This document shows, in pieces, positions 17,570 through 35,272 of a stretch of 64,000 bases of DNA. The notes below the pieces were generated by a model. The model was not told where the DNA came from. It ran no database searches and saw nothing but the letters and a program-made list of their open reading frames with translations. Position numbers and translations under genes: made by a program. Numbering within the stretch: the stretch's first letter is position 1; each line of letters opens with the position of its first letter. Origin of the DNA: Frankiales bacterium (GTDB taxonomy: Bacteria; Actinomycetota; Actinomycetes; S36-B12; CAIYMF01); NCBI GenBank assembly GCA_016125335.1, contig WGLY01000026.1, forward strand, positions 1 through 64,000. Reading direction: 5' to 3'.

Positions 17570-17974
17570 GTGAGACCACACCGCCGCGCCCTGCGCATTG
17601 CGCTGCCGACCGCCCTCGCGGTCGGCCTGGTCGCCGTGCTGGTCGGCCCGGCCGTCGCCGCTGCGGACGACCACGACGGATCGCCGGGAGCACCTGCGGG
17701 CCACGGCCCGGCCGCGCCCCGCGCCACCGCCACGGTCGAGGTGCCCGCGGTCGCCCTCACCGAGCACGTGGTGGCCTCGGCAGGACGCATCCGGACGCCG
17801 CTGCTGCTCACCGAGCCCGGGGCGCGCGCCGTCGCGCGGGTCGAGCCGGGCGGCCGCTGCGCGGTGCGGCTCGAGCCCGGGGAGGTCGCGTGGCTGTCCT
17901 GCGCGGCGTCACCCGGCGACCGTGTCGTCGTGCGGCTCTCGGACGGACGGCGGGCGGCTCAGCGGGTCGAGTGA
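17570..17974 (+). CDS. Secreted hypothetical protein
   Basis: A protein of 134 residues with a signal peptide (basic RPHRRALRIALP, hydrophobic core, cleavage near VAAADD) and a small beta-rich mature domain. The mature domain has two cysteines (GGRCAVRL and AWLSCAAS) that could form a disulfide. GTG start with AGGAG 4 nt upstream. The gene converges with, and overlaps by 16 nt, the LPXTG gene. No family recognised. Confidence 0.6.
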   Translation: MRPHRRALRIALPTALAVGLVAVLVGPAVAAADDHDGSPGAPAGHGPAAPRATATVEVPAVALTEHVVASAGRIRTPLLLTEPGARAVARVEPGGRCAVRLEPGEVAWLSCAASPGDRVVVRLSDGRRAAQRVE

Positions 17975-18960
17975 GGCGGCCGGTCCCCGGCCACGCGGCA
18001 CGGGTCCGGTGCACCCGGCTGCCCCGCGAGGACGCGCAGCGCGCATCCCGCCACCACGAGCGCCACGGCGACGAGGGCCAGCGGCCCGACGTCGGCACCC
18101 GTGCGCGGCAGCTCCTGCGGCGAGCCGGCGTCCTCGCCCCCGCCGGTGCCCCGGCCACCGGTGCCGGGCAGCGGCACGCCCCGGCTGCCGCCACCGGGCG
18201 GGAGCGGGTCGGGGGGTCGTCCGCCGTGGCTGCCCTCCCCGGGGTCCGGGCGGGTGTCCGGGTTGCACACGTAGACCACCTGGGACACCCGGTCGACCGG
18301 GGTGCGGGCGACGAGCTCGTAGAAGCCCGAGCGGGTCAGGCGCGGGATCGAGATCCGGCCCGTGCCCGTACCGTCCGCCGACGTCGTCACCTCACCGACC
18401 TCGACGTCCGGGCCAGTCCCGTGGAGGAGCAGTGCGACCTCGTCGCGGGCCCGGAACCCGGTGAGGTCGACGTAGGTCGGCTCGTGCCGCAGCACCTGCT
18501 CCCCGACGCCGACCACGCGGCCGTCGACGGCCACCACCCGCATGGCCGGCACGCGGTCGACCGTGACGGCCAGCGGGGCCGACACCACGGTGACCGACGC
18601 GGCGGCGTCATCCGGGAGGAAGCCCGCGGACACCACGTGCGCGCCCGGCGACAGGTAGCCGCGCACCCACGCGGTGCCCCCGCGGACCGGGGCCTGCCCC
18701 ACGACGCCGTCCGGCGTCGACACACGCACGCTGCCGTGGGCCTGCGCCGGGCTCACGTCGACCCGGAACGTCGTGACCGCCGGTCCCCCCTGCCGAGGCT
18801 GCTGGACGCCGGACACCACCAGCGACTGCGCGGACGGCGGTGCGGCGGCCTCCGCCACGAGCGGCGCGACGCCCGCGGTAGCGGGCACCAGCAGCGCGAG
18901 AGCCGCCAGCCGGAGCACGAGGGCGCGGCGCAGCGCACGCGGGTGCACCCCGGTCCCCAT
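17959..18960 (-). CDS. LPXTG-type surface protein
   Basis: A secreted protein of 333 residues. It has a signal peptide (about 1-40), beta-rich repeats resembling Ig/fibronectin folds (about 45-230), a Gly/Pro-rich linker, and a sorting signal. That signal is LPRTG followed by a hydrophobic helix (VGPLALVAVALVVAGCAL) and a polar, weakly basic tail. A sortase should anchor it to peptidoglycan. GAGGGAGC precedes the ATG. Upstream lies a PHO-box-like element. It is the fifth unit of the minus-strand surface cluster and would correspond to the LPXTG partner in WxL loci. Confidence 0.8.
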   Translation of the reverse strand: MGTGVHPRALRRALVLRLAALALLVPATAGVAPLVAEAAAPPSAQSLVVSGVQQPRQGGPAVTTFRVDVSPAQAHGSVRVSTPDGVVGQAPVRGGTAWVRGYLSPGAHVVSAGFLPDDAAASVTVVSAPLAVTVDRVPAMRVVAVDGRVVGVGEQVLRHEPTYVDLTGFRARDEVALLLHGTGPDVEVGEVTTSADGTGTGRISIPRLTRSGFYELVARTPVDRVSQVVYVCNPDTRPDPGEGSHGGRPPDPLPPGGGSRGVPLPGTGGRGTGGGEDAGSPQELPRTGADVGPLALVAVALVVAGCALRVLAGQPGAPDPCRVAGDRPPHSTR

Positions 18961-19032
18961 CCGTCGCTCCCTCGTCGCCCGCCAGGCCAGCAGTCGATCA
19001 CCGTGGCGGCGGCAGGTGTACGCGGGCGGCGG

Positions 19033-19065
19033 TGATCATGACGCGCAGGCGTGGGACGGGTGAAC
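19033..19065 (-). promoter_or_regulatory. PHO-box-like element upstream of the LPXTG gene
   Basis: On the minus strand three consecutive 11-nt units are seen: GTTCACCCGTC (19055-19065), a spacer unit, and CGTCATGATCA (19033-19043). The first matches the PhoP half-site type; the third is a weak match. It is 73-105 nt upstream of the ATG at 18960. Confidence 0.5.
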
Positions 19066-19155
19066 AGGCCGTGCCCGGGCGATGACGTTCGGCCCACGGT
19101 GACGCCGCGGCTTCGCAGGGTGAGGGGACGGCGCGGACGCACGGCCGCGGGCACG

Positions 19156-19195
19156 CCGACGGGCCGCGCCCCCCGGAGGGGACGCGGCCCGTCGG
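19156..19195. terminator. Hairpin terminator after the Ig-repeat gene
   Basis: A 13-bp stem (CCGACGGGCCGCG with its complement) closes a C/G-rich loop that can itself pair (CCCC/GGGG). It begins 6 nt beyond the stop codon of the gene at 19201. Confidence 0.7.
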
Positions 19196-19200
19196 TGGTG

Positions 19201-20985
19201 TCAGCGCACCCGGGCGCCGCGGCTCGACGCCGCGCCGGTCGCGTAGCCCGGCTTCACCGTGGTGACCACCAGCACGAGGGTCTTGCCACGCCACGCGGTG
19301 CCGATCCGCAGCGAGGAGCGGTGCGACACGACGTGGCCGTTGACCTTCCACGTGTAGGCGTAGCGGCTCGGCCGCGGCGACCACGAGCCGACCCGCGCCT
19401 TGACCGTGCGACCCACCAGCGCGTAGCCGCGGTAGAGCCCCAGGATCGAGGGCCGCACCGTGGCACGGGGCGCGGCGCCGAGGGCGACCTTGACCGCCGC
19501 GGACGACGCGCTCGCCGAGCCGGCCGGGTTGGTGGCGGTCACCGTGCAGGTGACCCGGTGCCCGGCGTAGCCGGCGGGCAGGGCCGCGGTGCGGGCCGTG
19601 GTGGCGAACGGCGTCGTCGCCGAGTCGAGGTACCACGCGTAGGAGTACGTGCCCGCGTAGGTCCACACGCCGGCCGTGCACGTGCTCGCCGCGCCCACGC
19701 GGGCACCGCCGACCGTCGGCGCCGACACGTCCGCCGGGGCGGCGAGCGTGATCGAGTACGCCGTGCCGGAGGCGGTCGAGCTGGCGTTGAAGCTCGCGTT
19801 GCCGGCGTAGTCGGCGGTCAGGGTGTGGTCGCCGATCGTGAGGGTGGACGCCGGGATGGTGACCACGGCCTCTCCGCTGCCGTCCAGGGTGCCGGTGCCC
19901 ACCTCGGTGCCGTCGGCCTTCACCGACACCGCGCCGGTGGGCGTGGTCGCGGGAGTGGTCGAGTCGGCCACGGTCACCGTGACGTGGATCGGCGTGCTGG
20001 TGTCCGCCGTCGCCGCCGGGTCGACCATGTCGATGCTGGTGGTCGTGTCGTCCGCGGGGACGGCGTCGACGCTGAACGAGGTAGCGGTGGAGGTGGACCC
20101 GCTGTAGGTCGTGGTGTCGGTCGGGGTGAACACCGCGGTGAACGAGTGCGAGCCCGAGGCCGGGGTGAACGACGCCGACGTCGCGCTGCCGGAGCCGTCG
20201 ACGGCCACGGCCGCGCCGAGGTCGGTCCCGCCGTCCTTGAACTGGATCGTCCCCGCCGGGTGGTCGGCGCCCGCGGAGGCGACCGAGGTCAGCGTGATCG
20301 CGGTGCCGGCCGCTGCGGGGCTCGTGACCGAGGGCACGGGCGCGGTCACCGAGGTGGCGGTCGCCGTGACGCTCGGCGTCGGGTAGATCTGCGTCCACTC
20401 ACCGGCGACCTGGTCGACGGCGATGGTGGCCGAGGAGTACCGCGTGGTGTCGATCGACTGGCCCGGGCCGGACGTGTACATGCGCAGCTGGTAGAGCCCC
20501 TGCCACGCCGCGTTCGCGTCGTTGTTGGGGTAGTAGAACGGGTGCCCGGCGCTCGGGTCGAACCAGAGGAAGGTGGTCGACACCGCGGCGTGTGTGTTCC
20601 CGGACAGTGCCCCGGGCAGCGTGGCCGGGTAGTCGTCGGAGGCCGAGATCTGCTCGCTGGCCCAGTTGTAGGAAGGGGCGGTGCTCGACGGCGTCACCGC
20701 GAACAGCGAGGCCTTGGTGTCGCCGCTGCGACCGGCGTCGGTGTCGGCCACGGCGAAGGCCGGCGGCGTCGCGAGCGGGCCGTGGGTCAGCACGTTCCCG
20801 CTCGCGTCGTAGAAGCTGATCGTGCCCTGCGTCGCCCCGTTGAGGGTGGTCGAGGCGGGCGGGTCGAAGGGCGAGGTCGCGGCCGCGCTCGCGGGCGTGG
20901 CGCCCGAGATCGCGACGGTGACGGCGACCGCGGCCGCCGTGGCGGCGGACGCGACCGTGGTTGCCCAGCGGCGACCATGTCTCAC
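19201..20985 (-). CDS. Secreted Ig-like repeat surface protein
   Basis: A protein of 594 residues. After the signal peptide come an N-terminal domain of about 170 residues (from NGATQGTISFYDASGNVLTH to VDQVAGEWTQIYP), then two or three Ig-like (Big_3-type) domains (PAGTIQFKDGGTDLG, then TPTGAVSVKADGTEVG). A C-terminal region is rich in Trp/Tyr/Arg (YAYTWKVNGHVV). No membrane anchor or LPXTG is present. The first 300 residues are strikingly similar to those of the protein at 23452. The start is a GTG at 20985 with AAGGAG upstream. A two-unit PHO-box-like repeat lies in front of the gene. Confidence 0.85.
   Translation of the reverse strand: MRHGRRWATTVASAATAAAVAVTVAISGATPASAAATSPFDPPASTTLNGATQGTISFYDASGNVLTHGPLATPPAFAVADTDAGRSGDTKASLFAVTPSSTAPSYNWASEQISASDDYPATLPGALSGNTHAAVSTTFLWFDPSAGHPFYYPNNDANAAWQGLYQLRMYTSGPGQSIDTTRYSSATIAVDQVAGEWTQIYPTPSVTATATSVTAPVPSVTSPAAAGTAITLTSVASAGADHPAGTIQFKDGGTDLGAAVAVDGSGSATSASFTPASGSHSFTAVFTPTDTTTYSGSTSTATSFSVDAVPADDTTTSIDMVDPAATADTSTPIHVTVTVADSTTPATTPTGAVSVKADGTEVGTGTLDGSGEAVVTIPASTLTIGDHTLTADYAGNASFNASSTASGTAYSITLAAPADVSAPTVGGARVGAASTCTAGVWTYAGTYSYAWYLDSATTPFATTARTAALPAGYAGHRVTCTVTATNPAGSASASSAAVKVALGAAPRATVRPSILGLYRGYALVGRTVKARVGSWSPRPSRYAYTWKVNGHVVSHRSSLRIGTAWRGKTLVLVVTTVKPGYATGAASSRGARVR
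20383..20888 (-). repeat. Duplicated coding segment, copy 1
   Basis: Encodes the N-terminal domain shared with the gene at 23452. DNA similarity to 24616-25108 is obvious by eye (for example the shared GTCGTTGTT-GGGTAGTAGAACGGGTG stretch). It extends more weakly into the first Ig domain. Confidence 0.75.
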
Positions 20986-21093
20986 GGGGACTCCTTGTCG
21001 AAGGACCGAGCGGCGCCGACGGCTCGGCACCAGCGCGCACCCTGCCGACCCGAGTCATCTGTCGCCGGAGTGCTGGGCGACGCTGTCGCGCAC

Positions 21094-21115
21094 AGTGCGT
21101 GAACGTCGGCTGAAC
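21094..21115 (-). promoter_or_regulatory. PHO box upstream of the Ig-repeat gene
   Basis: Two contiguous 11-nt direct repeats on the minus strand: GTTCAGCCGAC (21105-21115) then GTTCACGCACT (21094-21104). They match the PhoP direct-repeat type and are oriented with the gene starting at 20985. The element lies in the 144-nt gap between two genes, indicating a separate promoter. Confidence 0.7.
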
Positions 21116-21129
21116 GACCCCTGCCCGAG

Positions 21130-22083
21130 TCAGCCCCGAGGCGCCGAGTGACGCGGCGCGGCAGCGACGCGGCCCGCCGCGACGCGCTGGTAGCCGACGA
21201 GAGCGAGCGCGGCCAGGGCGCCGAGAGCCGCGAGGGCGATGCCGACCACCAGGGGCGTGCTCGATCCGGCGGACCCCGAGCCTCCCGTGCCGGAGACGGC
21301 GGCCACCGGCGAGGCGGGGTCGCCGGCCGCGGCGGCCGGGTCGGTCCCGCTCCCCGGCGCGGGCGAGTCGGACGAATCGGCGGCCGAGGACGCGTCGGCG
21401 CCTCCGGCCGAACCTGCGGACCCGTTGCGCGCGGCCGCCTGCTGGCTCTTCACCGCAGCGACCGACGCCGAGTAGCTCGGCAGCAGCGTCTCGGGCGAGG
21501 TCGCCTTGCCGACAGCGCACGGTGCCGTCCCCTGCGGGCCGGCCACCGTCCAGCGGTTGCCGTCCACGTGCAGGTTGACCGCGGCGTACACCTGTGAGGG
21601 GCCGATGCCGGGCGCGGAGTAGTAGAGACGGATCTGCACGTAGCCGTCCCACGAGGCCGGGAACTCCTTGAGGTACACGCTCAGCGGCAGGTCGATGGGG
21701 GTGGCCTGCGCCACCGCGTGGTCCGGGGACTCGTACGACGACGTGGCGGTGAGCGCGTCGCCGTTCCAGGACTCCGGGGCGACACCCTTGCGCGGCTGGG
21801 CGTACAGCAGGAAGGCGAGCCGGTCGCTGCCGTTCCAGGGCGCCGGCGGCGGGTTGGAGCTGACCGCCCGCCACACGAACGGCTGCGCGGTGACCGACCC
21901 GCTGGTGATCGGCTGCAGCTTGTCGTTGCACAGGGTCACGAGGCCGGCCGCGCCGGGATCGGTGTAGGGCACCGCACCGGAGGCGCCGGCGGCCCCCGCC
22001 GCGGGCCCGGTGACCAGCAGGCCGGCGAGGACGGCGGAGGCGAGGAGGGCGAGGCGGGAGCGGACGCTCGTCAGGGAGGGCAC
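21130..22083 (-). CDS. Secreted, C-terminally membrane-anchored protein with the shared N-domain
   Basis: A protein of 317 residues. It has a signal peptide (about 1-33), a single extracellular domain (about 40-205), an Ala/Ser/Gly linker, and a C-terminal membrane helix (STPLVVGIALAALGALAAL) with a basic tail. The extracellular domain is a distant relative of the N-terminal domain of the two Ig-repeat proteins: compare WDGYVQIRLYYSAPGIG here with WQGLYQLRMYTSGPGQS there, each followed by a YAA/YSSATIAVD-type strand. GTG start, AGGAG upstream. It follows the DUF916 gene by 9 nt and is surely cotranscribed with it. Confidence 0.78.
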   Translation of the reverse strand: MPSLTSVRSRLALLASAVLAGLLVTGPAAGAAGASGAVPYTDPGAAGLVTLCNDKLQPITSGSVTAQPFVWRAVSSNPPPAPWNGSDRLAFLLYAQPRKGVAPESWNGDALTATSSYESPDHAVAQATPIDLPLSVYLKEFPASWDGYVQIRLYYSAPGIGPSQVYAAVNLHVDGNRWTVAGPQGTAPCAVGKATSPETLLPSYSASVAAVKSQQAAARNGSAGSAGGADASSAADSSDSPAPGSGTDPAAAAGDPASPVAAVSGTGGSGSAGSSTPLVVGIALAALGALAALALVGYQRVAAGRVAAAPRHSAPRG

Positions 22084-22092
22084 GGGAGCTCC

Positions 22093-23289
22093 TCAGCTGG
22101 TGCGGGTGCGGGTACGGAGGTTGGCGGGCGCCTCGCGCCGGCCCCGGGGAGCAGCGGCCTCGCGGCGGCCGCGGGGGGCCTCGGTGCGGGCCCGGCGGCC
22201 GGTGGGCGGGCCCCCGCCGCCGCGGCGGCGCACCAGCCACACGGCCAGTCCGACGATCCCGGCCAGCACGAGCAGCAGGAGCAGCAGCAGGCTCCAGGGC
22301 ACGGCGAGCACGCTCGTCTCTCCCGACGCGTCGGACAGGCCCGGGGCCGAGTCGGTGGAGGTGAGCCTCGGGTGGGCGACAACCTTGACGCTCTCGCGGA
22401 ACTGCGGCCACACGCCGGGCACCACCACGGTCTGACGCACCTCGTTGCCCGGCAGGAGGATCCCGACGGAGCCCTCCGGGCCCTTCGCCGTCGCGCCGAG
22501 CAGGCCGGCCACGGTGGTGTCGACGACCGCGCCGAGCTTGACGTTGCCGGTGTTGCGCACGGTGTAGGTCACCGACATCGTCCCGGCGGCCAGCGGGTTG
22601 AGGCCGCCGTGGTACTCCGCGATGACGTCACTGACGGTCAGCTGCGGTGTGATCACCCCGCTCACCCGCAGGAACATCCGCGTGCCGACCCTCTGGTCGA
22701 GCTGGATGTTGGCTCCGCTCGCGTCCTTCCCGTTGGCCGAGAGCACGGCGAGCAGGAGCGCCGTGTGGTCGCCCGGCGAGGCGTCCGCGGGGACCGACAC
22801 GGTGAACGGCACGATCGTCTGGCCGGGGCCCTTCGCGGTGCGGGGCGGCACGGTCACCTTCGCCGCCGAGCGGGGCAGCGCCACCCACTTGCCGAGGTCG
22901 GTGTTCTGCTTGGTCAGGTCGAGGCCGGACAGGCCGCCCGCGTCGGTGTTGACCGCGTCGACGGCGATGAGCCGCACGGTGATGGGCTTGGCGCCGTAGT
23001 TGAGCACGGCGGCGTGGTCGCTGAGGCGCGCGCCGGCGGTGGCGCCGTAGGCGAACGACGGCTTGCCATCGGCGCCCTTCGCGCTGGCGGGAGCGACTCC
23101 GAAGGTCGCAACGTCGGGGTTCGGCGCGGCCGAGGACGCGGACGTTCCGCCCGACGTGCTCGGCGCCGGCGAGGGGGTGGAGGTGTCGGCCCGTGCCGCG
23201 GTGCCCGGGGCGAGCAGGGCGAGGGCCAGGCCGCCCAGCACGGCCGCGGCGAGGGCGCGGAACGGGGGGCGGGCGTCGGTGCGGGACAT
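22093..23289 (-). CDS. DUF916 (WxL-interacting type) membrane-anchored protein
   Basis: A protein of 398 residues with a signal peptide, an extracellular beta-sandwich region and a single C-terminal membrane helix (WSLLLLLLLVLAGIVGLAVWL). A very basic Arg-rich cytosolic tail follows. The pattern AAVLNYGAKPITVRLIAVDA, VPPRTAKGPGQTIVPFTV, VPADASPGDHTALLLAV and VTYTVRNTGNVKLG resembles DUF916. In Firmicutes this defines the WxL-interacting proteins that bind WxL proteins and peptidoglycan. The neighbouring WxL-like gene supports this. A GTTCACC unit lies about 40 nt upstream of the ATG. Confidence 0.75.
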   Translation of the reverse strand: MSRTDARPPFRALAAAVLGGLALALLAPGTAARADTSTPSPAPSTSGGTSASSAAPNPDVATFGVAPASAKGADGKPSFAYGATAGARLSDHAAVLNYGAKPITVRLIAVDAVNTDAGGLSGLDLTKQNTDLGKWVALPRSAAKVTVPPRTAKGPGQTIVPFTVSVPADASPGDHTALLLAVLSANGKDASGANIQLDQRVGTRMFLRVSGVITPQLTVSDVIAEYHGGLNPLAAGTMSVTYTVRNTGNVKLGAVVDTTVAGLLGATAKGPEGSVGILLPGNEVRQTVVVPGVWPQFRESVKVVAHPRLTSTDSAPGLSDASGETSVLAVPWSLLLLLLLVLAGIVGLAVWLVRRRGGGGPPTGRRARTEAPRGRREAAAPRGRREAPANLRTRTRTS

Positions 23290-23328
23290 GGGAGCACACC
23301 ACCGAGTGAAGACGACGGACAGGTTCCT

Positions 23329-23339
23329 GACGGGTGAAC
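23329..23339 (-). promoter_or_regulatory. Single PHO-box unit upstream of the DUF916 gene
   Basis: GTTCACCCGTC on the minus strand, identical to the 11-mers at 19055-19065 and 26667-26677. The adjacent units (AGGAACCTGTC, CGTCGTCTTCA) are poor matches, so this is a half-site candidate only. Confidence 0.4.
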
Positions 23340-23374
23340 GCCGGGCGACGCGGTGCGGACATTCCCCGGACGCG

Positions 23375-23409
23375 CGGAGGGGCGGGACGTCGCGCGTCCC
23401 GCCCCTCCG
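23375..23409. terminator. Hairpin terminator after the WxL-like gene
   Basis: A perfect 15-bp stem (CGGAGGGGCGGGACG with its complement) closes the loop TCGCG. It is 43 nt past the stop codon of the gene at 23452 and upstream of the DUF916 promoter, so it separates the two units. Confidence 0.8.
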
Positions 23410-23451
23410 CCGGGTCGCCGGCGAGGACGACCCGAGGTGCACTACGTGCGG

Positions 23452-25194
23452 TCAGGCGATGGTGAAGGTGACCGTGGCCTGGTACGTGCCGGCGACGGTC
23501 GACGTGGGCGCGACGAGGTTCATCGTGCCCCCGACCCCGACGGTGCCAGTGCCGTGCACGGCGCTGGCGAACTGGTGCGGGCCGCCGTTGAGGCCGTCAC
23601 CGAGCGACGCCGTGTCGCCCACCGCGTAGCCGTCCACGGTGTGGGTCGGCACGTCGTTGACGACGATCGGCTTGGTGGCGGCGTTGAGCGCGTTGCCGCT
23701 GTAGTAGTTCGCGACCACGGCGTCGAACGACAGGTTCGCCGAGTTAATGGCGTTCGTGCCGTCGCTGAAGTCGTTCGCCGTCACCGACGCCGTCCACGGC
23801 TGGTCACCGGCGCGGGTGTCGGTGATGGTGACGCCGTCGGCGGCGCTCGCGACGCGGCCGAAGTCGCCCGAGGCGGTGAGGCGCTTGCCGTCCGCCGAGA
23901 GCTGCATGGTGCCCAGGTCGAACGGGTTGCTCGGGCCCCACGGCGTGCTGATCGTGAGCGTTCCGGCAGCCACCGTCACCTGGATCGTCTGCGGGTCGGT
24001 GCAGGTGGTGCAGGACGGCGCGTCGTAGGTCGCGGACACCGCGGCGCTGGTCACCGCGGAGGTGCCGGAGCCGAAGACGGCCGTGAAGGAGTGCGCACCG
24101 GCGGCGAAGGTCGACAGCGTGATGCTGTACGGCGCCGCGCTCTTCGAGCCGATGGTCACGCCGTTGTCCTTGAACGTCACCGTGCCGGAGACCACGGACC
24201 CGGGCGGGGTGGTGGTGAGGGTGGCGGTGAGGGTCACCGGCTGGTAGGCCGGGCCGCTCACGACGTCGACGCCGAGGTCGACACCGCTGACGGTGGCCGC
24301 GGGGGTCACGTCGAAGGACAGCGCCGCCGACTCGGCCGAGGCCGTGTAGGAGGTGCTGGTCGGCGTGAACACCGCGGTGTAGAGGTGGTTGCCGTCGGTG
24401 GGCACGAAGCTGGCGCTCGTGGCCGCGCCGGAGGAGTCCACGGCCACCGGCGCGCCGAGGGCGGCGCCGTTGTCCTTGAACTGGATCGTGCCCGCGGGGT
24501 GGGTCGAATCAGCGGCCGTCGCCGTGGCCGACAGCGTGATCGAGGTGCCGTGGGCCGCGGGGCTGGCCACCGACGCGACCGGCGTGGTCACCGAGGTGCC
24601 GTAGACGGGTGCGGGGTACACCTGGGTCCACTCGCCCGCGACCTGGTCGACCGCGATCGTCGCCGAGGCGTACTGCGTGACGTCGATCGACTGGCCCGGG
24701 CCCGAGGTGAACATGCGCAGCTGGTAGAGGCCCTGCCACGCCGTGTTGGCGTCGTTGTTCGGGTAGTAGAACGGGTGGCCGGTGGCGGGGTCGAACCAGA
24801 GGAACGTGCTCGACACCGCGGCGTGGGTGTTGCCGGCCAGCGCGCCCGGCAGCGTCGCCGGGTAGGCGTCCGAGGCCGAGATCTGCTCGCTGGGCCACGA
24901 GGACGGCGGGGCCGTGCTCTGCGGCGTCACGGCGAAGAGCGACGCCAACGTGTCGCCGGGGCGGCCGGAGTAGGTGTCGGCGACCGCGTAGGCCGGCGGC
25001 GTGGCGAGCGGGCCGTGGGTGATCGGCGCGCCCGTGGAGTCGTAGAACGTGATGGTGCCCTGGGTGGCACCGTTGCCCGAGGGGTCGAACGGCGACGTCG
25101 CCGCCGCGCTCGCCGGGGAGGCCCCGACGAGGGCGAGCGCCCCGGCCGTCGCCAGGGCGAGCGCCCCGGCGACGGCCTTGCTGCGGATCTTCAT
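23452..25194 (-). CDS. Secreted Ig-like protein with WxL-like C-terminal domain
   Basis: A protein of 580 residues with a clear signal peptide (MKIRSKAVAGALALATAGAL). The shared N-domain spans about 35-190, and Ig-like domains follow (PAGTIQFKDNGAALG; GTVTFKDNGVTIG). From about residue 410 there is a C-terminal domain with LGTMQLSADGKRLTASGDFG, then VTITDTRAGDQPWTASVTAN and DFSDGT. That layout resembles the wall-binding WxL domain, but the motif reads WTA rather than WxL. No membrane anchor. It follows the PstS-like gene by 81 nt with no terminator between, so they are probably one unit. Confidence 0.78.
   Translation of the reverse strand: MKIRSKAVAGALALATAGALALVGASPASAAATSPFDPSGNGATQGTITFYDSTGAPITHGPLATPPAYAVADTYSGRPGDTLASLFAVTPQSTAPPSSWPSEQISASDAYPATLPGALAGNTHAAVSSTFLWFDPATGHPFYYPNNDANTAWQGLYQLRMFTSGPGQSIDVTQYASATIAVDQVAGEWTQVYPAPVYGTSVTTPVASVASPAAHGTSITLSATATAADSTHPAGTIQFKDNGAALGAPVAVDSSGAATSASFVPTDGNHLYTAVFTPTSTSYTASAESAALSFDVTPAATVSGVDLGVDVVSGPAYQPVTLTATLTTTPPGSVVSGTVTFKDNGVTIGSKSAAPYSITLSTFAAGAHSFTAVFGSGTSAVTSAAVSATYDAPSCTTCTDPQTIQVTVAAGTLTISTPWGPSNPFDLGTMQLSADGKRLTASGDFGRVASAADGVTITDTRAGDQPWTASVTANDFSDGTNAINSANLSFDAVVANYYSGNALNAATKPIVVNDVPTHTVDGYAVGDTASLGDGLNGGPHQFASAVHGTGTVGVGGTMNLVAPTSTVAGTYQATVTFTIA
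24616..25108 (-). repeat. Duplicated coding segment, copy 2
   Basis: Encodes the N-terminal domain of the WxL-like protein, homologous to 20383-20888. The duplication probably arose within this locus and was followed by divergence of the downstream domains. Confidence 0.75.
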
Positions 25195-25275: not shown

Positions 25276-26406
25276 CTACTTGGAGCCGTCGCAGGACGTG
25301 CCGGCCACGTTGGCCCGGCCGAGGTCCTGGAAGGCCGGCGTCTGCCCGGCGGCCGCGATGTTCGCGGCGTAGGCGGGGCTGCGCACCGCCGAGTTCGGGT
25401 TGGTGATGATGGCCTGGACGAAGTTGGAGGGCGACCCGGGCAGGTACGGGGTGGTGCTGGTGATGTCGTTCTGGCGCACCACGAGGTACAGGTTGCGCAC
25501 GTGCACGTAGCTGCCCGTGCCGGTGACCGCGACGACCTTGTTCTTCGCCGCAGCGCCGAAGAAGCCGCTGTTGTTCAGCCCGATGCGGCCGTTGGAGAAC
25601 GGCGCGATCGCGTTGGGGAGGCCGTCGAGGGCGGCGTAGTCGTTCTCCTGCACCTGGCGCACGGCCGGCCCATAGGTGCCGCCCCAGCCGGCCGCCGTGA
25701 GGTCGGCCTCGAAGGTGCTGCGCGTTCCCGAGCCGGGCTGCGGGATGAGCGGGTCGATCGTGGCGGTGGAGCCGCCGGAGTTGCCCGGGATCTGGTTCCA
25801 CGTGGTGTACGTGCCGTCGTAGATCTTCACCAGGTCGGCGATCGAGATCGTCGACGGGGCGTTGGTGACGGTCGCGGTCGCGGCCGTGAGGTTCTCGGTC
25901 GCGAACTTGTAGGTGTGCAGACCACCGAAGCCGGCCGCCGCGGCCCCGCCGTCCTCGAGCGTGCAGTAGGGCAGGCCCGACATGCGCGCGATGTTCTCCA
26001 TCGGCACGCCGGCGGTCGTGCCGCCGGAGAAGTACTGGGCGTTGAACAGAGCGCCGGCGCCACCGTGCGAGCCGTTGGGCCGGGGCACCGGACCGTTGCC
26101 GGCGCGCATCACGATGGTGGTCGCGAGCGGCGTGCCGTCCGCGTTGTACGTCGCGCGGCCGTTGGCGTCGCCGGTCGCGTCGAACGACATCATGCGGTTC
26201 GACTTGCTGACGTTGAACCCCGCTCCGCCGGACGGCGTGCCGTCGGCCACGAAGTCCAGCGTGTACTGGATCGTGTCGGAGCCGCCGAGCACGGCGTCAC
26301 CGGAGGTCGGGTACGGATCGGCCGTGGCCGGCCCGACCAGGCCGAGGGAGAGGGCCGTCGCGGCGAGCGTCGCGAGACCCAGGCTGACCTTGCTGACCTT
26401 GCGCAT
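25276..26406 (-). CDS. Secreted PstS-like periplasmic-binding-fold protein
   Basis: A protein of 376 residues with a Sec signal peptide (MRKVSKVSLGLATLAATALS, cleavage near ATADPY). The PBP-like fold shows GGSDTIQYTLDFVADG at the start, IADLVKIYDGTYTTWNQIPG in the middle (as in PstS, where it leads the second lobe) and IPQPGSGTRSTFEADL, a ligand-binding loop. There is no lipobox Cys and no C-terminal helix, so it is freely secreted or held by partners. The ligand may be phosphate or something else. A perfect two-unit PHO box precedes it. Confidence 0.82.
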   Translation of the reverse strand: MRKVSKVSLGLATLAATALSLGLVGPATADPYPTSGDAVLGGSDTIQYTLDFVADGTPSGGAGFNVSKSNRMMSFDATGDANGRATYNADGTPLATTIVMRAGNGPVPRPNGSHGGAGALFNAQYFSGGTTAGVPMENIARMSGLPYCTLEDGGAAAAGFGGLHTYKFATENLTAATATVTNAPSTISIADLVKIYDGTYTTWNQIPGNSGGSTATIDPLIPQPGSGTRSTFEADLTAAGWGGTYGPAVRQVQENDYAALDGLPNAIAPFSNGRIGLNNSGFFGAAAKNKVVAVTGTGSYVHVRNLYLVVRQNDITSTTPYLPGSPSNFVQAIITNPNSAVRSPAYAANIAAAGQTPAFQDLGRANVAGTSCDGSK

Positions 26407-26481
26407 GTGCTGTCCCCTTCCGGACAGGTGGGGTGGACGAACGGCGCGAGTCAATCGGCGTCAGGGGTACGGCCAGGGCGG

Positions 26482-27685: not shown

Positions 27686-30465
27686 AGCCTCCCGCGCGGG
27701 CGCCAGGCGAGTGCGGGGCCCAGGAGCACGCAGGCGAGCCCGAGACCCAGCAGCACCGGCAGCAGCACCCCCACCGGCCCGATCGGCGACTCGGGCGTGG
27801 TGCCGAGCGACACCGGGGTCACGCTCGGGCTCGACGTGCTCGGCGACGGGGTGGGCGTCGGGCTCGGAGCCGCGCTCGCGGACGCGCTCGACCCGGTGTC
27901 CGGGGTGGTGGTCGGGTAGGTGACTCCTGACCCGGTGCCGCCGCTCTGTCCTGAGCTCGCCGTGGTCCGCGTGGGGGTCGGCCGGGGTGTGGGGGTCGGG
28001 GTCGGGGTCGGGTCGTGGCCGGTGACGCTGGGGACGGTGCCGTTCTGCGCGGCGACCGCGACGGCTGCCCGCGCGGTGTAGGCCGACAGCGCGCTCAACC
28101 CGTTGGCCGGGCTCAGCGGGAGGTAGCCGGCCGGCAGCTGTCCGGGGTCGGTCCCCGGGGTCTGGCCGGTGGTGGCGGCGAAGGTCATGAAGGCCGCGTA
28201 GGCGGCGGCGTCCGTGGCGGGCAGACCCGTGGTGGGCACCGACATCGACACGAGCATGGCGCCCGGGTAGGCGCCGGCACCGGCGGGGTCCGACGACATC
28301 CTCGTGCGCTGGAGGACCCAGGTGTGCGTGGTGTCGTCCGGGGCGAGGAACCCGGCAGCCGCCTTCAGCGCGGCGTCCGTGGGAGCCGCGAAGCTGCGTC
28401 CGGTCGCGTCGGTGAACCTCGTCGAGGAGGGCGTCACCCCGGAGGTCTGCAGCGATGCCGTGGCGAGGCGGTAGCGCTCGGCGTCGGCGAGGCTCGTGAT
28501 CCCGAGCACGAACCTCAGTCCGGGTGTCTGGCGCCCCTGTGCCACCAGCTTCACGGCCGAGAGGTTGGTCGAGTCGTTGGCGTTAGGGTTGGTGCACTTG
28601 AGCTGCGAGTTCGCGATGGAGAACTGCATGTTGAGGGTCACGTAGGCGAAGCGCAGCATCGGGGCGGCCACCTGCGGCAGGTACGGCACCGGTGCGTAGT
28701 AGAAGCAGGCGTTCTGGCCCCGGGTGAACGGGTAGACGTAGTCGTCGAGCAGCGGCCAGGTGCTCACCGGCAGCGCCATCCCCTTGTACGCCGGGTTCAC
28801 CGTCATCCCCCACGGGTCGGGCTCTCCGGCCATGAACGCGTGCGCCTCCGGGTCGGCGTCGATGTAGCTCGTCACCGCCGTCATGACGTCCGTCGAGCTG
28901 CTCACGGTGAGGATCGTCGAGGCCGCGGCGATGTTGAGGTCGGTGGGCACGTCGGGGTTGAGCGCCTGGAACTCCGGGTCGAAGGTGAGGTTGAGCGGGT
29001 TGTTCTTCAAGCCCTCGTCCGGCGGGATCCCGGCCGCCGGGTTGCCGTTCTTGACCCCCAGGTAGGACGGGTAGGACTCGGTGAGCAGCTTCGCGAGCAG
29101 CCGAGCGTTGAGGCGCAGGGACGTCAGCAGGCGTCCCTGCGCGTCGTCGATCGAGAAGGTGACGGCATAGCCGGTGAGCGCCACGGGGGCGTTCACCACC
29201 GGCCTGCTGTATCCCCCGGAGGGAAGGTTGCTGGCGAACGCCGCCTCGATGTTGCCCACCTTCAGCAGGTTCGCGGCCTGGGGCTCACCGGTCTGCACGT
29301 GCTGGAACGGCGTCTTCTTCGAGTCGAGGCAGAACGGAGGGGCCCACTGCAGGGTCGCCTGCGTCATGAGCTCCGAGCCGTAGATGGCGATGGGCGCCTT
29401 CCCGCCCACCACCGAGCACACGCTCGCCGACGGCGCGAAGTGCAGCGGCACGCTCACCCGGTTGCGCCAGTTCGACGCCGACCACCACAGCGAGCCGTTG
29501 ACCGCGGACGACGAGAGGTCGCCCTGGACGAACTGCGACCCGGGAGCGAAGTTGCCGTTGCTGGTGCAGGCTGCGTCGATGTCGGGCAGGTCGAGGGCGA
29601 GGGGACGGTCGGCCACGGGCAGGCCCGCGCCGGCCTCGTCGCAGGAGATGCCCACCACCGGCACGATCACGACGCTGCAGGCCACCGTGTCCGAGCAGCC
29701 GAGCGAGGCGTTGCTGTCGGCACTGCGGACGTTGAACAGGATCGAGCCCGTGCCGTCGGCCCCGGTGACCGCGAAGGTCTCGTTGCTCGGCAGGTTGGTG
29801 GCGGTCAGGTTCGACGTGGCCTCCGGGGGCATGCCGGCGCAGGCCGAGGACCCGCCGTAGTAGCGAGTGCCGCTCTCGGACACGAACGGCACCCAGCGCT
29901 CGGAGATCCCGATGTCCGTGCAGGCCGCCGGCCGCGGCGACGGCGCGCCGGCGAACTGCGTCCGCTCCTCGGCCGTGGCATAGCGGTCCATCCGCCACTC
30001 CGGGTAGGCGGTGGAGTAGTCGGCCTTGAAGCGCTCGGCCCACGACTGCGTCCAGCAGGTCTCCGGGCTCAGCTGCTGGGCGGCGGGCACGGTGCTGGAG
30101 TCGACGCCGCGGCACTCGAGGACCACCACGGGGTGCTCGATCACCACCGCGGCCGCGGAGTTCTGGTCCGCGACGATGCCCCCGCTCTGCGGCGCTCCGG
30201 TCCACGAGACCGGGACCGCCTGCCGGTCGCGCAGGCCGTGGGTGTCGCCGACGGTGACCGAGATGCTGTACGCCGTCGTGGCCACGTCGTTTCCGGCGGC
30301 GTCGAGGTGCGTGCGGGTGGCCGTGACGGTCTTCGTCGTCGACTGGCCGCCCGACGTCGCGGCCTCGGCCGGTGCCGTCTGCTCCCCGGGGATGCCGGCG
30401 GCCGCGCCCGAGGCGACGAGGGCGAGGGCCGCGGCGAGCGCGAGGAGCCGGGCGGGGGTCCTCAC
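27682..30465 (-). CDS. Large membrane-anchored surface protein in the pst operon
   Basis: A protein of 927 residues with a signal peptide (about 1-36) and a Cys-containing N-terminal region (about 40-430; several CxxD/Cys positions probably disulfide bonded). The central part (about 430-800) is followed by a Thr/Pro/Ser stalk and one C-terminal helix (VGVLLPVLLGLGLACVLLG) with a short basic end. The central segment has SLRLNARLLAKLLTESYPS and NPLNLTFDPEFQALNPD, a pattern I associate with large actinobacterial PstS-like binding proteins. That is a weak call. It is translationally coupled to pstS upstream and to the sortase-fold gene downstream (4-nt overlaps). Confidence 0.75.
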   Translation of the reverse strand: MRTPARLLALAAALALVASGAAAGIPGEQTAPAEAATSGGQSTTKTVTATRTHLDAAGNDVATTAYSISVTVGDTHGLRDRQAVPVSWTGAPQSGGIVADQNSAAAVVIEHPVVVLECRGVDSSTVPAAQQLSPETCWTQSWAERFKADYSTAYPEWRMDRYATAEERTQFAGAPSPRPAACTDIGISERWVPFVSESGTRYYGGSSACAGMPPEATSNLTATNLPSNETFAVTGADGTGSILFNVRSADSNASLGCSDTVACSVVIVPVVGISCDEAGAGLPVADRPLALDLPDIDAACTSNGNFAPGSQFVQGDLSSSAVNGSLWWSASNWRNRVSVPLHFAPSASVCSVVGGKAPIAIYGSELMTQATLQWAPPFCLDSKKTPFQHVQTGEPQAANLLKVGNIEAAFASNLPSGGYSRPVVNAPVALTGYAVTFSIDDAQGRLLTSLRLNARLLAKLLTESYPSYLGVKNGNPAAGIPPDEGLKNNPLNLTFDPEFQALNPDVPTDLNIAAASTILTVSSSTDVMTAVTSYIDADPEAHAFMAGEPDPWGMTVNPAYKGMALPVSTWPLLDDYVYPFTRGQNACFYYAPVPYLPQVAAPMLRFAYVTLNMQFSIANSQLKCTNPNANDSTNLSAVKLVAQGRQTPGLRFVLGITSLADAERYRLATASLQTSGVTPSSTRFTDATGRSFAAPTDAALKAAAGFLAPDDTTHTWVLQRTRMSSDPAGAGAYPGAMLVSMSVPTTGLPATDAAAYAAFMTFAATTGQTPGTDPGQLPAGYLPLSPANGLSALSAYTARAAVAVAAQNGTVPSVTGHDPTPTPTPTPRPTPTRTTASSGQSGGTGSGVTYPTTTPDTGSSASASAAPSPTPTPSPSTSSPSVTPVSLGTTPESPIGPVGVLLPVLLGLGLACVLLGPALAWRPRGRL

Positions 30466-32174
30466 GGCGCACCCCGTCGGGCGGTGAGCCGGCGGTGGAT
30501 CACCGGTGGCAGCACGATCACCGCGATCAGGCCCAGCGCCGTGAGCAGCGCGAACACGGGCACCGCGGAGGCGGTCTGGGTGGAGGAGCTCAAGGTGACC
30601 GCGACCGGCTCGGCCGCGCCCGCGCCACCGCCGCTCCCGCTACCGCCCGTCGCCGGGTCGACGACCTGCCCGGTGGCCGGGTCGATGCTGGGGGCCGCAC
30701 CCGGGTCCGTGCCGCCCGACGCCGGGGTGGTGGCGCCACCACCGCCCCCACCGCCACCGCCGCCGGCCGTGGCCCCCGTGCCGCCGCTCCCGCCGGACGA
30801 GCCGCCCGAGCTCGAGCCCCCGGACGACGAGCCGCTCCCCGAGCCGCTGCCGCCGGTGGACCCGCCCGGCTTGCCGTTGCTGCCCGGGTTCGCGGTGTTG
30901 GGGATCGAGTCCGTGCAGGGACCGGCCCCGACCTTGTCGCAGGCCTGCGGCATCGGCGCGATCTCGGCGAGGTAGTTGCGGTTGGGCTGGCCGGCGATGA
31001 ATGTCGGGTTGTTGCACGAGCTCACGTTGCGCTTGGTCAGGTCGACCCCGGGGTCGGCTGCCTTCAGCTTGGCCACCTGGTCGAACGAGGCCTGCACGAG
31101 GTTGATCGGCAGCGGCGAGTAGCCGAGCGGGCCGATCTCGCGCTGCCCCTGGCACAGCGAGTAGTACAGGTAGTCGGCAAGGGTCTGCCGCTTCGCCGTC
31201 GTCATGGTCTGGTCGTTCGACGCCGTCGGGATGATGCCGTAGGAGTAGGACGAGAGGGGGTAGGTCCGCTTGTCGGTGAACGTGTAGACCTGCTGGAGGT
31301 TCTGGAGCAGGTAGTTGGGCGAGGTCTTGTCCTGGTTGATGACGGCCTTGGTGAGCGCGACCGCGACGTTGTACTGGTCGGGCAGGGTGAAGTAGCCGGC
31401 CTTGTTGAGCACCTTGGCCACGGGGTAGTCCTGCGCGAGCGCGTAGGAGTACTCGTCGTAGCCGATCGCGCCGTTGCCGGCGGCCGAGGCGATGTAGTTG
31501 ATGACGCCGTCGGAGCCGTTCTGCGCGATGGCCTTCCCCTTGCGCGGGAAGTATTCGGTGAGCCCGCTGGTGCCGAGGAACGGTCGCCAGATGCTCGGGA
31601 ACTGCGAGTCGAGATAGGCGGTGAACTGCGCCGAGGAGCCCGAGCCCTCGGAGTGCACCACCGGGATGATCGGCAGCGACGGGAGCGCCTTTCCGTTGTT
31701 GTCCGCGGTGATGGCCGGGTCGTTCCAGTTCGTGATCTGGTTGGTGAAGATCTTTGCGAGGGTCTGGCCGGAGAGCCGCAGGTTGCGGACGAGCTTGCCG
31801 GCCACCCGGACCTGGTAAGGGAACGACGTGCCGCCCGCCACGATCGGGAGGTAGACGAAGTCGCGTCCCTGCGAGGTGTCCGTGTCGCCGGTGACCGGGT
31901 CGACCCCCTGGAATCCGATGTCGCTCACCGCGAAGTCGTTCTGCTTGTACCCGAAGTCCTTGCGGCCCTGCGCCGACCCGCTCGCGGTGAAGACCACCTG
32001 CAGGCCGTTGGGCTGGACGTCCGCGACCCACTGGTTGACCGCGTTGGCCGACCAGCTGGAGCCGGAGCCCTGGATGAGGGCGTGGCTGGCCGCCACTGCC
32101 GGCTGGGTTCCGATGGCCGTGACGACGAGAGCCGCCGCCACCAGGGCCAGTGCCTGGGCTCGAGTGCTGCGCAT
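30462..32174 (-). CDS. pstS: Phosphate-binding protein PstS with C-terminal membrane anchor
   Basis: A protein of 570 residues; typical PstS has 320-380. The binding domain (about 30-420) carries IQGSGSSWSANAVNQW, FAVSDIGFQG, LAKIFTNQITNWNDPAI and the phosphate loop HSEGSGSSAQFTAYL. The N-terminus is a Sec signal without lipobox Cys. A Gly/Ser-rich linker of about 90 residues (with a run of 10 Gly) and a C-terminal helix (VPVFALLTALGLIAVIVLP) with a basic tail follow. The protein is thus tethered at the opposite end from the usual lipoprotein. It is 63 nt after pstA, with AAGGA upstream of the ATG. Confidence 0.9.
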   Translation of the reverse strand: MRSTRAQALALVAAALVVTAIGTQPAVAASHALIQGSGSSWSANAVNQWVADVQPNGLQVVFTASGSAQGRKDFGYKQNDFAVSDIGFQGVDPVTGDTDTSQGRDFVYLPIVAGGTSFPYQVRVAGKLVRNLRLSGQTLAKIFTNQITNWNDPAITADNNGKALPSLPIIPVVHSEGSGSSAQFTAYLDSQFPSIWRPFLGTSGLTEYFPRKGKAIAQNGSDGVINYIASAAGNGAIGYDEYSYALAQDYPVAKVLNKAGYFTLPDQYNVAVALTKAVINQDKTSPNYLLQNLQQVYTFTDKRTYPLSSYSYGIIPTASNDQTMTTAKRQTLADYLYYSLCQGQREIGPLGYSPLPINLVQASFDQVAKLKAADPGVDLTKRNVSSCNNPTFIAGQPNRNYLAEIAPMPQACDKVGAGPCTDSIPNTANPGSNGKPGGSTGGSGSGSGSSSGGSSSGGSSGGSGGTGATAGGGGGGGGGGATTPASGGTDPGAAPSIDPATGQVVDPATGGSGSGGGAGAAEPVAVTLSSSTQTASAVPVFALLTALGLIAVIVLPPVIHRRLTARRGAP

Positions 32175-32237: not shown

Positions 32238-33413
32238 CTAGCGGCCCTGCTTGTCGCGGGCGAGCCAGCGGGTGAGGACGAACAGGAACGTCACGAGGAT
32301 CAGGAGCACCGTGGCGGCGCCGAAGCCGCGCTGGATGTAGAGGTCCTGGCCGCTGCGCACCGCGAAGAGGCTGAACAACGGCAACGAGTTCATCGGGTCC
32401 TGGAACGGGTTCACGTTGAGGAATGTCGAGGCGCCGGAGGTGATGAGCACCGGCGCGGTCTCGCCGATCGCCCGGGCGATGCCCAGGATCACGGCCGTCG
32501 CCAGTCCGGCCTTCGCCGTCGGCAGCACCACGCCGCGCACGGTGCGCCACTGGCTCGCGCCGAGCGCCAGGCTTGCCTCCCGCAGGCCGCCGGGAACCAC
32601 GCGCAGCTGCACCTCGGCGGATCGGGCGATGATCGGGGTCATCATCACGGTGAGGGCCATGGCCGCGGCGAACCCCGACCTGGGGACGCCCAGCGCCAGG
32701 ATGAGCGTGACGTAGATGAACAGGCCGGCGAGGATGTCCGGCAGCGCCGTCATCGCCTCCACCACCGTGCGGACGATCCGCGCGCCGGTGCTGCCGACCT
32801 CGGTCATGTAGACGGCGGTGCCGATGCCCAGCGGCAGCGCGATCACCACCGCGATCCCTACCTGGATCAGCGTGCCGACGACCGCGTGGAGGATCCCGCC
32901 GGCGGACAGCGGGTCGGTCGGCCGCACGCCTGCCATGTCCTCGGTGTAGAAGTTGGCGTTCAGCAGGGCCGGGATCCCCTTGATCACCGTGTAGACGAGC
33001 GTGGTGACGAGCGCGCCGAACACCACGAGCGCCCCGGCCGACACCACCGCCTCCATCAGCCGGTCCACGACGAGGGTCCTCGGCTGCGACAGCGCCGTCA
33101 CCCCGGCGTACATCGCCAGGAACGCGACGTACCAGACGATGCAGAAGCCGAGCACTCCCTGCAGCCCGAGCACGAGCGAGTAGAGCACCCAGGTGAGGCA
33201 GAGGGAGGCGACGCCGGACCCGAGGAAGCTGAGGATCTCGTCCGAGGTGCGCTTGCCGATGATGCGCGGCACGTCGGCCGCCCGCCGCCCGGGGCGCGGG
33301 GGGTCCGACGGCGGCGCCGGCGGCCCGGTCGGGCCGACGACGACGGGGACCTCGGCCGTGTCACCGATCGCCGGCGGCACCTGCACCTCGGCCTCGGGTC
33401 GCACTGCGGTCAT
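32238..33413 (-). CDS. pstA: Phosphate ABC transporter permease PstA
   Basis: A protein of 391 residues with an unusually long cytosolic N-terminus (about 80 residues, Pro-rich) before the six-helix permease core. The PstA signature includes the EAA loop (LREASLALGASQWRTVRGVVLPTAKAG) and ARAIGETAPVLITSG. It forms the membrane channel with PstC. The ATG is 9 nt after the pstC stop. The SLCLTWVLYSLVLG segment adds at least one extra N-terminal helix. Confidence 0.95.
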   Translation of the reverse strand: MTAVRPEAEVQVPPAIGDTAEVPVVVGPTGPPAPPSDPPRPGRRAADVPRIIGKRTSDEILSFLGSGVASLCLTWVLYSLVLGLQGVLGFCIVWYVAFLAMYAGVTALSQPRTLVVDRLMEAVVSAGALVVFGALVTTLVYTVIKGIPALLNANFYTEDMAGVRPTDPLSAGGILHAVVGTLIQVGIAVVIALPLGIGTAVYMTEVGSTGARIVRTVVEAMTALPDILAGLFIYVTLILALGVPRSGFAAAMALTVMMTPIIARSAEVQLRVVPGGLREASLALGASQWRTVRGVVLPTAKAGLATAVILGIARAIGETAPVLITSGASTFLNVNPFQDPMNSLPLFSLFAVRSGQDLYIQRGFGAATVLLILVTFLFVLTRWLARDKQGR

Positions 33414-33422: not shown

Positions 33423-34448
33423 CTAGATGTCCGTGCCGGCGCCGCTGCGGCTCCGGTTGACGAAGACGGCGGCGATCGTGTTGACGACCAGGGTGATGAG
33501 GAACAGCACGAAGCCGGCGGTGAGCAGGGCCGAGAGCTGGTTCGAGGTCGCCTCGCCGAACAGTCCCGCGATGAGCGACGAGGTGGTGATCGTGCCGACC
33601 TCGAGAGGGCGGAACTTCAGGTCGAAGGCCGGGGAGATGATCAGCAGCACCGCGATGGTCTCGCCCAGCGCACGGCCCAGCGCGAGCATCGTGCCGCCGA
33701 TGATGCCTCCGCGCCCGAAGGGCAGCACCACGGAGCGCACAACGCCCCAGCGGGTCCCCCCGAGCGCCAGGACCGCCTCGCGCTCCCCCGGCGGGGCCTG
33801 CACGAACACGCCGCGCATCACCGCCGTCGCCAGCGGGATCACCATCATCGAGACGCACAGGCCGGCGATGAAGGCGGAGGAGGTGAAGCTCGACTGCCAG
33901 TTCGCCGCGAGGTCCGGGTCGACGTCGACTCGGAAGATGGGGATCCACCCGAGGTACTGGTTGATCCACCGGGCGACGTAGATGGCATACGGCTGCAGCA
34001 GGAAGAAGCCCCAGAGCCCGTAGATGATGCTCGGCACAGCGGCCATCAGGTCGATGGCCGAGACCAGGAACGACCTGATCCGCAGCGGTGCGTACTCGCT
34101 GATGTAGAGCGCGGTGAGCAGCGCGAGGGGAAACGACACCACGATCGCGACGAGGGCGACCTCGATGGTGCCGAGGATCACCGCGGAGATGCCGATCTGG
34201 TCGATCCGCGGCTGCCACTCGTTCTCGGTGAGGAACGACAGGCCGTAGCGCTGGAAGGTGGGGATCGACTGGTAGCCGAGGAAGACGCCGATGGCGCCGA
34301 AGATCACCAGGACGGTGATGCCGATGCTGCGCGCCGTCCAGTGGAAGGCGCGGTCCGGGCCGGACGGCCTGCGGTCGATCGGGCGAGGGGCGTCGCCCGA
34401 CGGGTCCGCGGCCGGCTCGACGGGCTCGAGGACGGCCTGGTGGCTCAT
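33423..34448 (-). CDS. pstC: Phosphate ABC transporter permease PstC
   Basis: A permease of 341 residues. Typical PstC features are the extracellular [15 protein letters not shown] loop, [22 protein letters not shown], and the EAA loop [23 protein letters not shown] followed by [13 protein letters not shown]. It pairs with PstA and the ATPase PstB to import phosphate. Its ATG overlaps the pstB stop (ATGA). Confidence 0.96.
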
Positions 34449-35272
34449 CCGAACCGTCCGTGGACGTAGTCGCTGGTCCGCGGGTCCTGCGGGTTCCCGA
34501 AGATGTCGTCCGTCCGCCCCGCCTCGACGATGACGCCCGGGGTCCCCTGCTCCGCCAGGAAGAACGCGCACTGCTGCGACACCCGCGCGGCCTGCTGCAT
34601 GTTGTGCGTGACGATGACGATGGTGACCTCGTCCTTGAGCTCGAGGATGGTCTCCTCGATGCGCCGGGTGGACGTGGGGTCCAGCGCGCTGCACGGCTCG
34701 TCCATCAGCAGCACCTCGGAGTCCACGGCCAGCGAGCGGGCGATGCACAGCCGCTGCTGCTGCCCGCCGGAGAGCGCGCTGCCCGGCTGCTTCAGCCGGT
34801 CCTTGACCTCGGCCCAGAGCCCGGCGCGCACCAGGCACCGCTCGATGAGGTCGTCGCGGTCGGCGCGCCCCACCTTGGTGCCGGTGAGCTTGAGACCCGC
34901 GGTCACGTTGTCCGCGATCGACATCGCAGGGAACGGGTTGGGCTTCTGGAACACCATCCCGATCCGCTTGCGGGTGTCGGTGATCCGGTTGCCGGCGTCG
35001 TAGATGTCGACACCGTCGAGGAGCACCTGACCGGACATCTGCGCGGAGGGCACGAGCTCGTGCATCCGGTTGAGGATGCGCAGGAAGGTGGACTTGCCGC
35101 AGCCGGAGGGACCGATCAGGGCCGTCACCGTCTGCGCCGGCATGGGCAGCGAGACCTGGTCGAGCACCTTGCGCTCGCCGAACCAGGCGGACACGCGGCG
35201 TGCGTCGAGGCTCGACCCGGCCACCACGCGCGGCGCCGGCCCCGGTCCGGACTCGATGGTGATGGTGCTCAC
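34445..35272 (-). CDS. pstB: Phosphate ABC transporter ATP-binding protein PstB
   Basis: An ATPase of 275 residues with Walker [22 protein letters not shown]-loop [12 protein letters not shown], signature [15 protein letters not shown], Walker [14 protein letters not shown] and the switch His in [12 protein letters not shown]. All are diagnostic for PstB. GTG start at 35272, overlapping the stop of the upstream DUF1508 gene (GTGA). The gene order B-C-A-S is the reverse of the usual pstSCAB. Confidence 0.96.

Follow-up and report, generated by a model that had tools for sequence, protein, structure and literature searches.

What is a set of surface proteins of the WxL type, of which more than 91% of known sequences come from Firmicutes (PMC9772566), doing among the genes of a phosphate-type transporter in an actinobacterium? 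The question is raised by a 64,000-nt stretch of DNA of a Frankiales bacterium (contig WGLY01000026.1, positions 1 to 64,000), which is referred to here as the window. An earlier note on this 64-kb window had described positions 17959-25194 as the counterpart of a Firmicute WxL locus, consisting of a DUF916-like protein, a protein with a WxL-like domain and an LPXTG protein encoded on one strand. All three genes were found where it had placed them, on the minus strand. The extent proved too narrow, because these genes form only the last part of a conserved locus of 12 genes, all on the minus strand, which runs from about 35300 down to 17959 (Table 1). What the earlier note missed is the pst cassette, whose further products include a giant PstS-like protein, a secreted protein of the PBP_like_2 family (PBP) and a sortase that is catalytically dead. 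In our reading, to which we give about an even chance, the locus encodes a cell-wall-attached solute-capture complex that serves a specialised Pst-type ATP-binding cassette (ABC) importer. The basis is computational: the homologies of the parts, their conserved order in pst operons, a predicted PstS fold, the loss of sortase catalytic residues, and the joint presence of the WxL and DUF916 genes. From these we infer how the complex would assemble and in which direction it would work.

The product of the gene at 23452-25194 consists of a signal peptide, an unnamed domain of about 160 residues, two Big_3_5 immunoglobulin-like (Ig) domains, and a C-terminal WxL-like domain. Residues 405-578 were matched to positions 39-209 of the 214 positions of the WxL profile PF13731. 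The score was 20.0 bits for the whole protein and 24.3 bits for the domain alone (E 3.6e-5), so the profile comparison that the earlier note had proposed gave a match, yet one below the cut-off of 25 bits. The same profile matched 10 of the 16 cassette homologs (best E 2.8e-6), and an hhalign comparison with WxL proteins of other Actinomycetota, among which several pass the cut-off, gave 98.4% and E 5.4e-15. The first motif of the domain reads DTRAGDQPWTA, in which leucine is replaced by alanine, and the Asp at W-8 and the Arg at W-6, both conserved in WxL domains (PMC9772566), are kept. The second motif, YQATVTFTIA, has FTI instead, and the domain therefore lacks the two Trp-x-Leu motifs. Judged by its sequence, the domain is a diverged relative of WxL and not a textbook WxL domain, as the earlier note had held on account of its WTA. 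A fold search with the model of this protein listed matches to the tandem Ig domains (residues 198-393), and a PDB profile search with the WxL domain returned nothing useful. The unnamed N-terminal domain (residues 36-200), for which there is no Pfam match, is common to the products of 21130-22083 and 19201-21030; the former showed weak similarity to residues 46-192 of the WxL-type protein (E 2e-6).

The product of 22093-23289 has a signal peptide, two Ig-like parts and, at its C-terminus, a hydrophobic helix followed by a basic tail (RRRGGGGPPTGRRAR...). The helix and tail, which the earlier note had pointed out, are borne out by the sequence and by the family alignment. Its DUF916 assignment stands in another form than proposed. 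The window protein alone gave no match to PF06030 in a direct Pfam/NCBIfam scan, and the assignment therefore rests on its family, in which 9 of 11 members matched PF06030 (best E 2.5e-12, 47 bits, cut-off 27.3); the homologs are 31-39% identical to the window protein over the alignment. When the family profile was compared with 177,635 PDB sequences, the best match was EfmWxLIP1 of Enterococcus faecium (9i25_C and 9i1y_A, 4e-5), and the sole further match up to E 1 was ApcG (0.62). The second part of the family members matched Ig models of the DUF7507/CARDB/NEW3 type, and neither DUF3324 (PF11797) nor HBD was among the matches of the 11 members. Both window proteins alone fall below the Pfam cut-offs, as would be expected if Ig-like surface proteins had merely converged on a similar sequence and there were no equivalent complex. 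We regard such convergence as highly improbable: homologs pass the DUF916 cut-off and come near the WxL cut-off over almost the full domain length, EfmWxLIP1 is the best hit in the whole PDB set, the profile-profile match to actinobacterial WxL proteins is strong, the Asp/Arg/Trp spacing is kept, and the two families stay adjacent and co-vary. Since the helix is followed by a basic tail, the positive-inside rule would place the DUF916-like protein in the cell's own membrane. The proposal that the WxLIP helix enters a host membrane (PMC10599100) does not suit this organism well.

The third gene claimed by the earlier note, at 17959-18960, encodes a real LPXTG protein, which ends in LPRTG, a helix and a basic terminus; in some relatives, the homologs end in PHTG or AHTG instead. 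The WxL, DUF916 and LPXTG genes all show a strong third-position GC bias. As in the Firmicute WxL/Csc clusters (cscABCD; WxL, WxLIP with DUF916-DUF3324, and LPXTG proteins), a DUF916-type membrane-anchored protein adjoins a large WxL-type Ig protein, and an LPXTG protein lies close by on the same strand. Unlike them, the window locus has one WxL protein with the motifs WTA and FTI, no small WxL protein and no DUF3324 match, and it is embedded in a pst operon together with PstS-like proteins and a pseudosortase. Only one WxL match was obtained across the whole genome, and no small WxL protein was found in it; the locus therefore falls outside the published definition of a WxL cluster, which has one WxLIP and two WxL proteins. 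The existence of an actinobacterial WxL/DUF916 counterpart is nevertheless supported by sequence homology and by the joint presence or absence of the two genes across cassettes. The idea that Ig-repeat partners are new to WxL loci had to be given up, as Ig domains in large WxL proteins were already known (PMC9772566).

Nor is the pair unique to the window. Among 198 sampled Actinomycetota other than this genome, DUF916 (PF06030) was found in 15 and WxL in 6 at E ≤0.001, and the two genes are often adjacent. Small tandem WxL genes beside DUF916, closer to the Firmicute arrangement, were seen in L127 (3851-6228), L129 (1130-3494) and L138 (7462-11513). Three genomes of Streptomyces size (L134, L136 and L141) carry adjacent WxL-like and DUF916 genes amid unrelated genes, with no pst genes. 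In a member of the same order (L019, G020:C5:50001-70000, positions 6964-17479), a protein with an HtaA domain and a WxL-like C-terminus is encoded beside a DUF916 protein (E 2.5e-12), in a probable heme-uptake locus that also contains Ig proteins, a Peripla_BP_2 receptor and an apparent heme oxygenase. This resembles the actinobacterial HtaA/heme uptake loci, whereas no HtaA domain is encoded in the window locus, which is linked to pst genes. The pair therefore also goes with another nutrient-capture function, and by analogy this suggests that it may serve solute capture more generally. In the open-licence literature (subscription journals were not covered), we found no paper joining the WxL domain and HtaA, and no relevant paper tying WxL to PstS and a sortase.

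The transporter genes give the locus its second character. Homologs of PstC, PstA and PstB and a PstS-fold receptor are encoded in one operon, as in the PstSCAB phosphate importer. Elsewhere in the genome (G000:C22) lies a canonical pst operon whose PstS is a lipoprotein, and the window operon is therefore a second, specialised one. Unlike in PstSCAB, the PstS of the window operon carries a C-terminal membrane helix in place of a lipobox, its anion loop is altered, and the operon adds two further PBP-type proteins, the pseudosortase and wall proteins. The loop of the window PstS, VVHSEGSGSS (HSEGSGS), departs from the canonical phosphate loop RSDGSGT. The HSEGSGS form occurs in the window and related lineages, and a clade rich in Nocardioides keeps RSDGSGT. 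Across the cassette PstS proteins (L041-L119), the Arg-to-His/Gln and Asp-to-Glu replacements mostly change jointly and in several lineages. From its sequence, a changed ligand or affinity of the window PstS is possible. The ligand would probably be phosphate or a phosphorus-containing anion.

The largest protein of the cassette, of 927 residues, consists of a cysteine-rich N-terminal domain, a PstS-like region and a C-terminal membrane helix. It was modelled by AlphaFold2 with 38 homologs (pLDDT 84, pTM 0.80). Residues 355-810 of the predicted structure aligned to solved PstS proteins, among them M. tuberculosis PstS-1 (1pc3; Z 32.1, 2.7 Å over 317 residues, 18% identity). A profile comparison with the cassette PstS gave E 1.1e-7, and 23 of the 38 homologs matched TIGR00975. 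According to the model, the protein contains a PstS fold. Eleven cysteines are invariant in the 38 homologs, no family could be assigned to the N-terminal 320 or so residues, and the phosphate loop GSGT is replaced by an SSDSDV-like pattern. This loss, together with the canonical operon that covers ordinary uptake, could mean that the non-canonical PstS-like proteins and the pseudosortase sense extracellular phosphate or the state of the wall and, instead of supplying the transporter, modulate it or PhoR-type signalling. Such a role is quite unlikely, as the operon keeps a complete set of permeases and ATPase and the cassette contains no kinase or regulator.

The pseudosortase (26720-27685) scored 38.6 bits against PF04203 (cut-off 26.6; E 1.1e-9), and it matched class E sortases of the PDB at about 3e-13 (5go6, 3.4e-13). 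It shares with class E sortases (SrtE1 of Streptomyces coelicolor, 5cuw; 5go6; 5uus) the GxGHxxxTxLPGxxG, GxPF and TLVT segments. It differs from them in the residues that carry catalysis and in extra C-terminal membrane helices. Alignment to solved sortases revealed that the catalytic His is replaced by Arg or Lys and the catalytic Cys of TLVTC by Ala. Counted over the catalytic Cys and His columns of 78 pseudosortase copies, Cys does not occur at all (A 41, S 24, G 8, V 2, T 2, gap 1), and His survives in 3 copies, with R in 67 and K in 8. As far as these alignments go, the family is conserved without its catalytic Cys and mostly without the His. One other sortase is encoded in the genome (L039), with both His (AHRSTHDEPF) and Cys (TMTTCTP) present, and the LPRTG protein could therefore be anchored only by this distant enzyme. 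A search of the same open-licence literature gave no paper with the term "pseudosortase" and no description of the family; the pst-linked cassette and the giant PstS were likewise not found described there, in a search that was not a full one. The retention of the sortase fold and of a strongly conserved GPGHxxxTxLPGQxG segment, in a locus with many secreted, C-terminally anchored partners, would also fit an assembly role: as a chaperone or sorting platform, the pseudosortase would direct the WxL, LPRTG and membrane-helix proteins of the locus either to the wall or to the genuine class E sortase. The product of the locus would then be a surface fibre, and solute capture would be secondary. We hold this to be unlikely, because the pseudosortase is kept in cassettes that have no LPXTG, WxL or DUF916 protein, where its constant partners are the PstS-like proteins only.

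The conservation of the cassette was followed with the 927-residue family in a scan of 84,980 species genomes, which turned up 150 relatives. Only the 79 best loci among them were retained, so the figures are no census, and the counts depend on thresholds of the hidden Markov models and on contig ends. Wherever a group is named, these best 79 of 150 relatives are all Actinomycetota, with Nocardioides, Marmoricola, Jatrophihabitans, Dactylosporangium, Cellulomonas, Mumia, Aeromicrobium, Frankiales, Streptosporangiaceae and Acidimicrobiia among them. A sortase-like gene is present in 76 of the 79 loci, PstS in 72 and the PBP gene in 66, and several of the gaps are contig ends. The recurring order in these actinobacterial loci is pstC-pstA-PstS-927aa-pseudosortase-PBP-(WxL-DUF916-...)-pstB, in which pstB often, though not always, takes the last place. 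The order of the window itself recurs in L016/L063, L022/L079 (another family of the order), L023/L078 and L014/L041. In most Nocardioides, pstB follows PBP, which places the cassette inside the pst operon. Of the cassettes sufficiently complete for a judgement, 14 carry both WxL and DUF916, and 46 that are bounded by pstB have neither; in L044 and L059, the contig ends after WxL. On the tree of the 927-residue family, at least four changes in WxL/DUF916 presence were counted, always of both genes together. Cellulomonas sp. URHE0023 carries two successive WxL-DUF916 pairs in one pst cassette (L115, 14899-21169), and in two Nocardioides loci (L065 and L073) a second pstC-pstA-PstS set directly follows the cassette pstB.

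These loci also bear on a wall-bound adhesin, directed to other cells, particles or a host, to which the WxL, DUF916 and Ig-repeat proteins would belong, with the pst genes and PBPs as neighbours or as adhesins themselves. Such a role has been proposed for the WxL loci of Enterococcus and Listeria, and the Firmicute clusters have been associated with adhesion and virulence (PMC9772566, PMC10599100); here, too, Ig repeats and an LPXTG protein adjoin the WxL-DUF916 pair. We consider adhesion rather unlikely, as the linkage to pstC, pstA and PstS is kept across distant families, the 927-residue gene overlaps the PstS gene and the pseudosortase gene by 4 nt at either junction, a core lacking WxL and DUF916 is retained in many genomes, and the organisms named among the relatives are mostly environmental.

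The solute-capture complex can be pictured as follows. PstC, PstA and PstB would import the ligand, for which the membrane-tethered PstS and the giant PstS-like protein would be the receptors standing on the membrane. Seated in the cell's own membrane, the DUF916/WxLIP-like protein would keep hold of the WxL protein; by analogy, the latter may bind peptidoglycan and display its Ig domains; WxL proteins bind peptidoglycan in the known cases for which Brinster 2007 is cited in PMC5817068. The secreted PBP and the LPRTG protein would extend the assembly into the wall, and the pseudosortase may serve as a platform in the membrane to which partners bind without being cleaved. A more specific form of this scheme, which we put forward only tentatively, is a wall-spanning solute relay. 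In the wall, WxL-anchored and sortase-anchored proteins would collect the substrate of the importer, which would then travel by way of membrane-tethered PstS-like receptors, in part non-canonical, that catalytically dead sortases organise. Three points speak against the capture complex. The co-occurrence of WxL and DUF916 amounts to four independent events only (sign test, p 0.125); a Fisher test gave p 6e-14, a value that ignores kinship and was not used as a measure of strength. Both genes are absent from most Nocardioides-type cassettes and are therefore not essential to the transporter. Finally, phosphate is uncertain as the ligand, because the loop of the 927-residue protein is lost and the window PstS has the R-to-H and D-to-E replacements.

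The genes of the locus are collected in Table 1. A promoter and terminator scan gave nothing above chance level. Divergent from the pst locus, two adjacent plus-strand genes at 36302-39456 resemble the common DUF1800/DUF1501 pair by sequence.

Table 1. Genes of the conserved locus in the window, in order of decreasing position.
Feature	Position	Strand	Evidence
pstB-like ABC ATPase	34445..35287	-	ABC_tran E 2.5e-32; match to cassette PstB model; start codon approximate
pstC-like permease	33423..34400	-	BPD_transp_1; ~69% identity to PstC of relatives, same gene order
pstA-like permease	32238..33413	-	BPD_transp_1; 60-66% identity to relatives
PstS-type receptor with signal peptide and C-terminal membrane helix, without lipobox	30462..32174	-	PBP_like_2 E 9.6e-35
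Giant receptor-like protein, 927 aa	27682..30465	-	AlphaFold model, PstS-1 fold match; TIGR00975 in homologs
Pseudosortase, class-E-like sortase domain with extra membrane helices	26720..27685	-	PF04203 E 1.1e-9
Secreted PBP_like_2 protein without membrane helix, GSGTR loop kept	25276..26454	-	PF12849 E 1.8e-10
Large WxL-type protein	23452..25194	-	PF13731 24.3 bits, E 3.6e-5 for the domain alone
DUF916/WxLIP-like membrane protein with C-terminal helix and basic tail	22093..23289	-	PF06030 in 9/11 family members
Secreted protein with C-terminal membrane helix, N-terminal domain as in the WxL-type protein	21130..22083	-	homologs at the same place in relatives
Secreted Ig-repeat protein with two Big_3_5 domains, N-terminal domain as in the WxL-type protein	19201..21030	-	PF16640 E 6.5e-21; homologs in relatives
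LPXTG (LPRTG) surface protein	17959..18960	-	sequence; homologs L017, L018, L023

The WxL/WxLIP loci have so far been read almost wholly as host-attachment systems of gut Firmicutes. Here, a WxL-DUF916 pair is tied to a transporter operon far from the Firmicutes, which offers a testable nutrient-capture function, and the variants of the PstS anion loop provide a natural series for tests of ligand specificity. The locus also brings out a pseudosortase family, uncharacterised and spread across the phylum, and a giant PstS-fold receptor with 11 invariant cysteines, neither of which is identified as such by current family models. It illustrates a way in which receptors may be distributed across the thick wall of monoderm bacteria, and it suggests that, beyond host attachment, nutrient capture is among the tasks open to WxL-type wall complexes.

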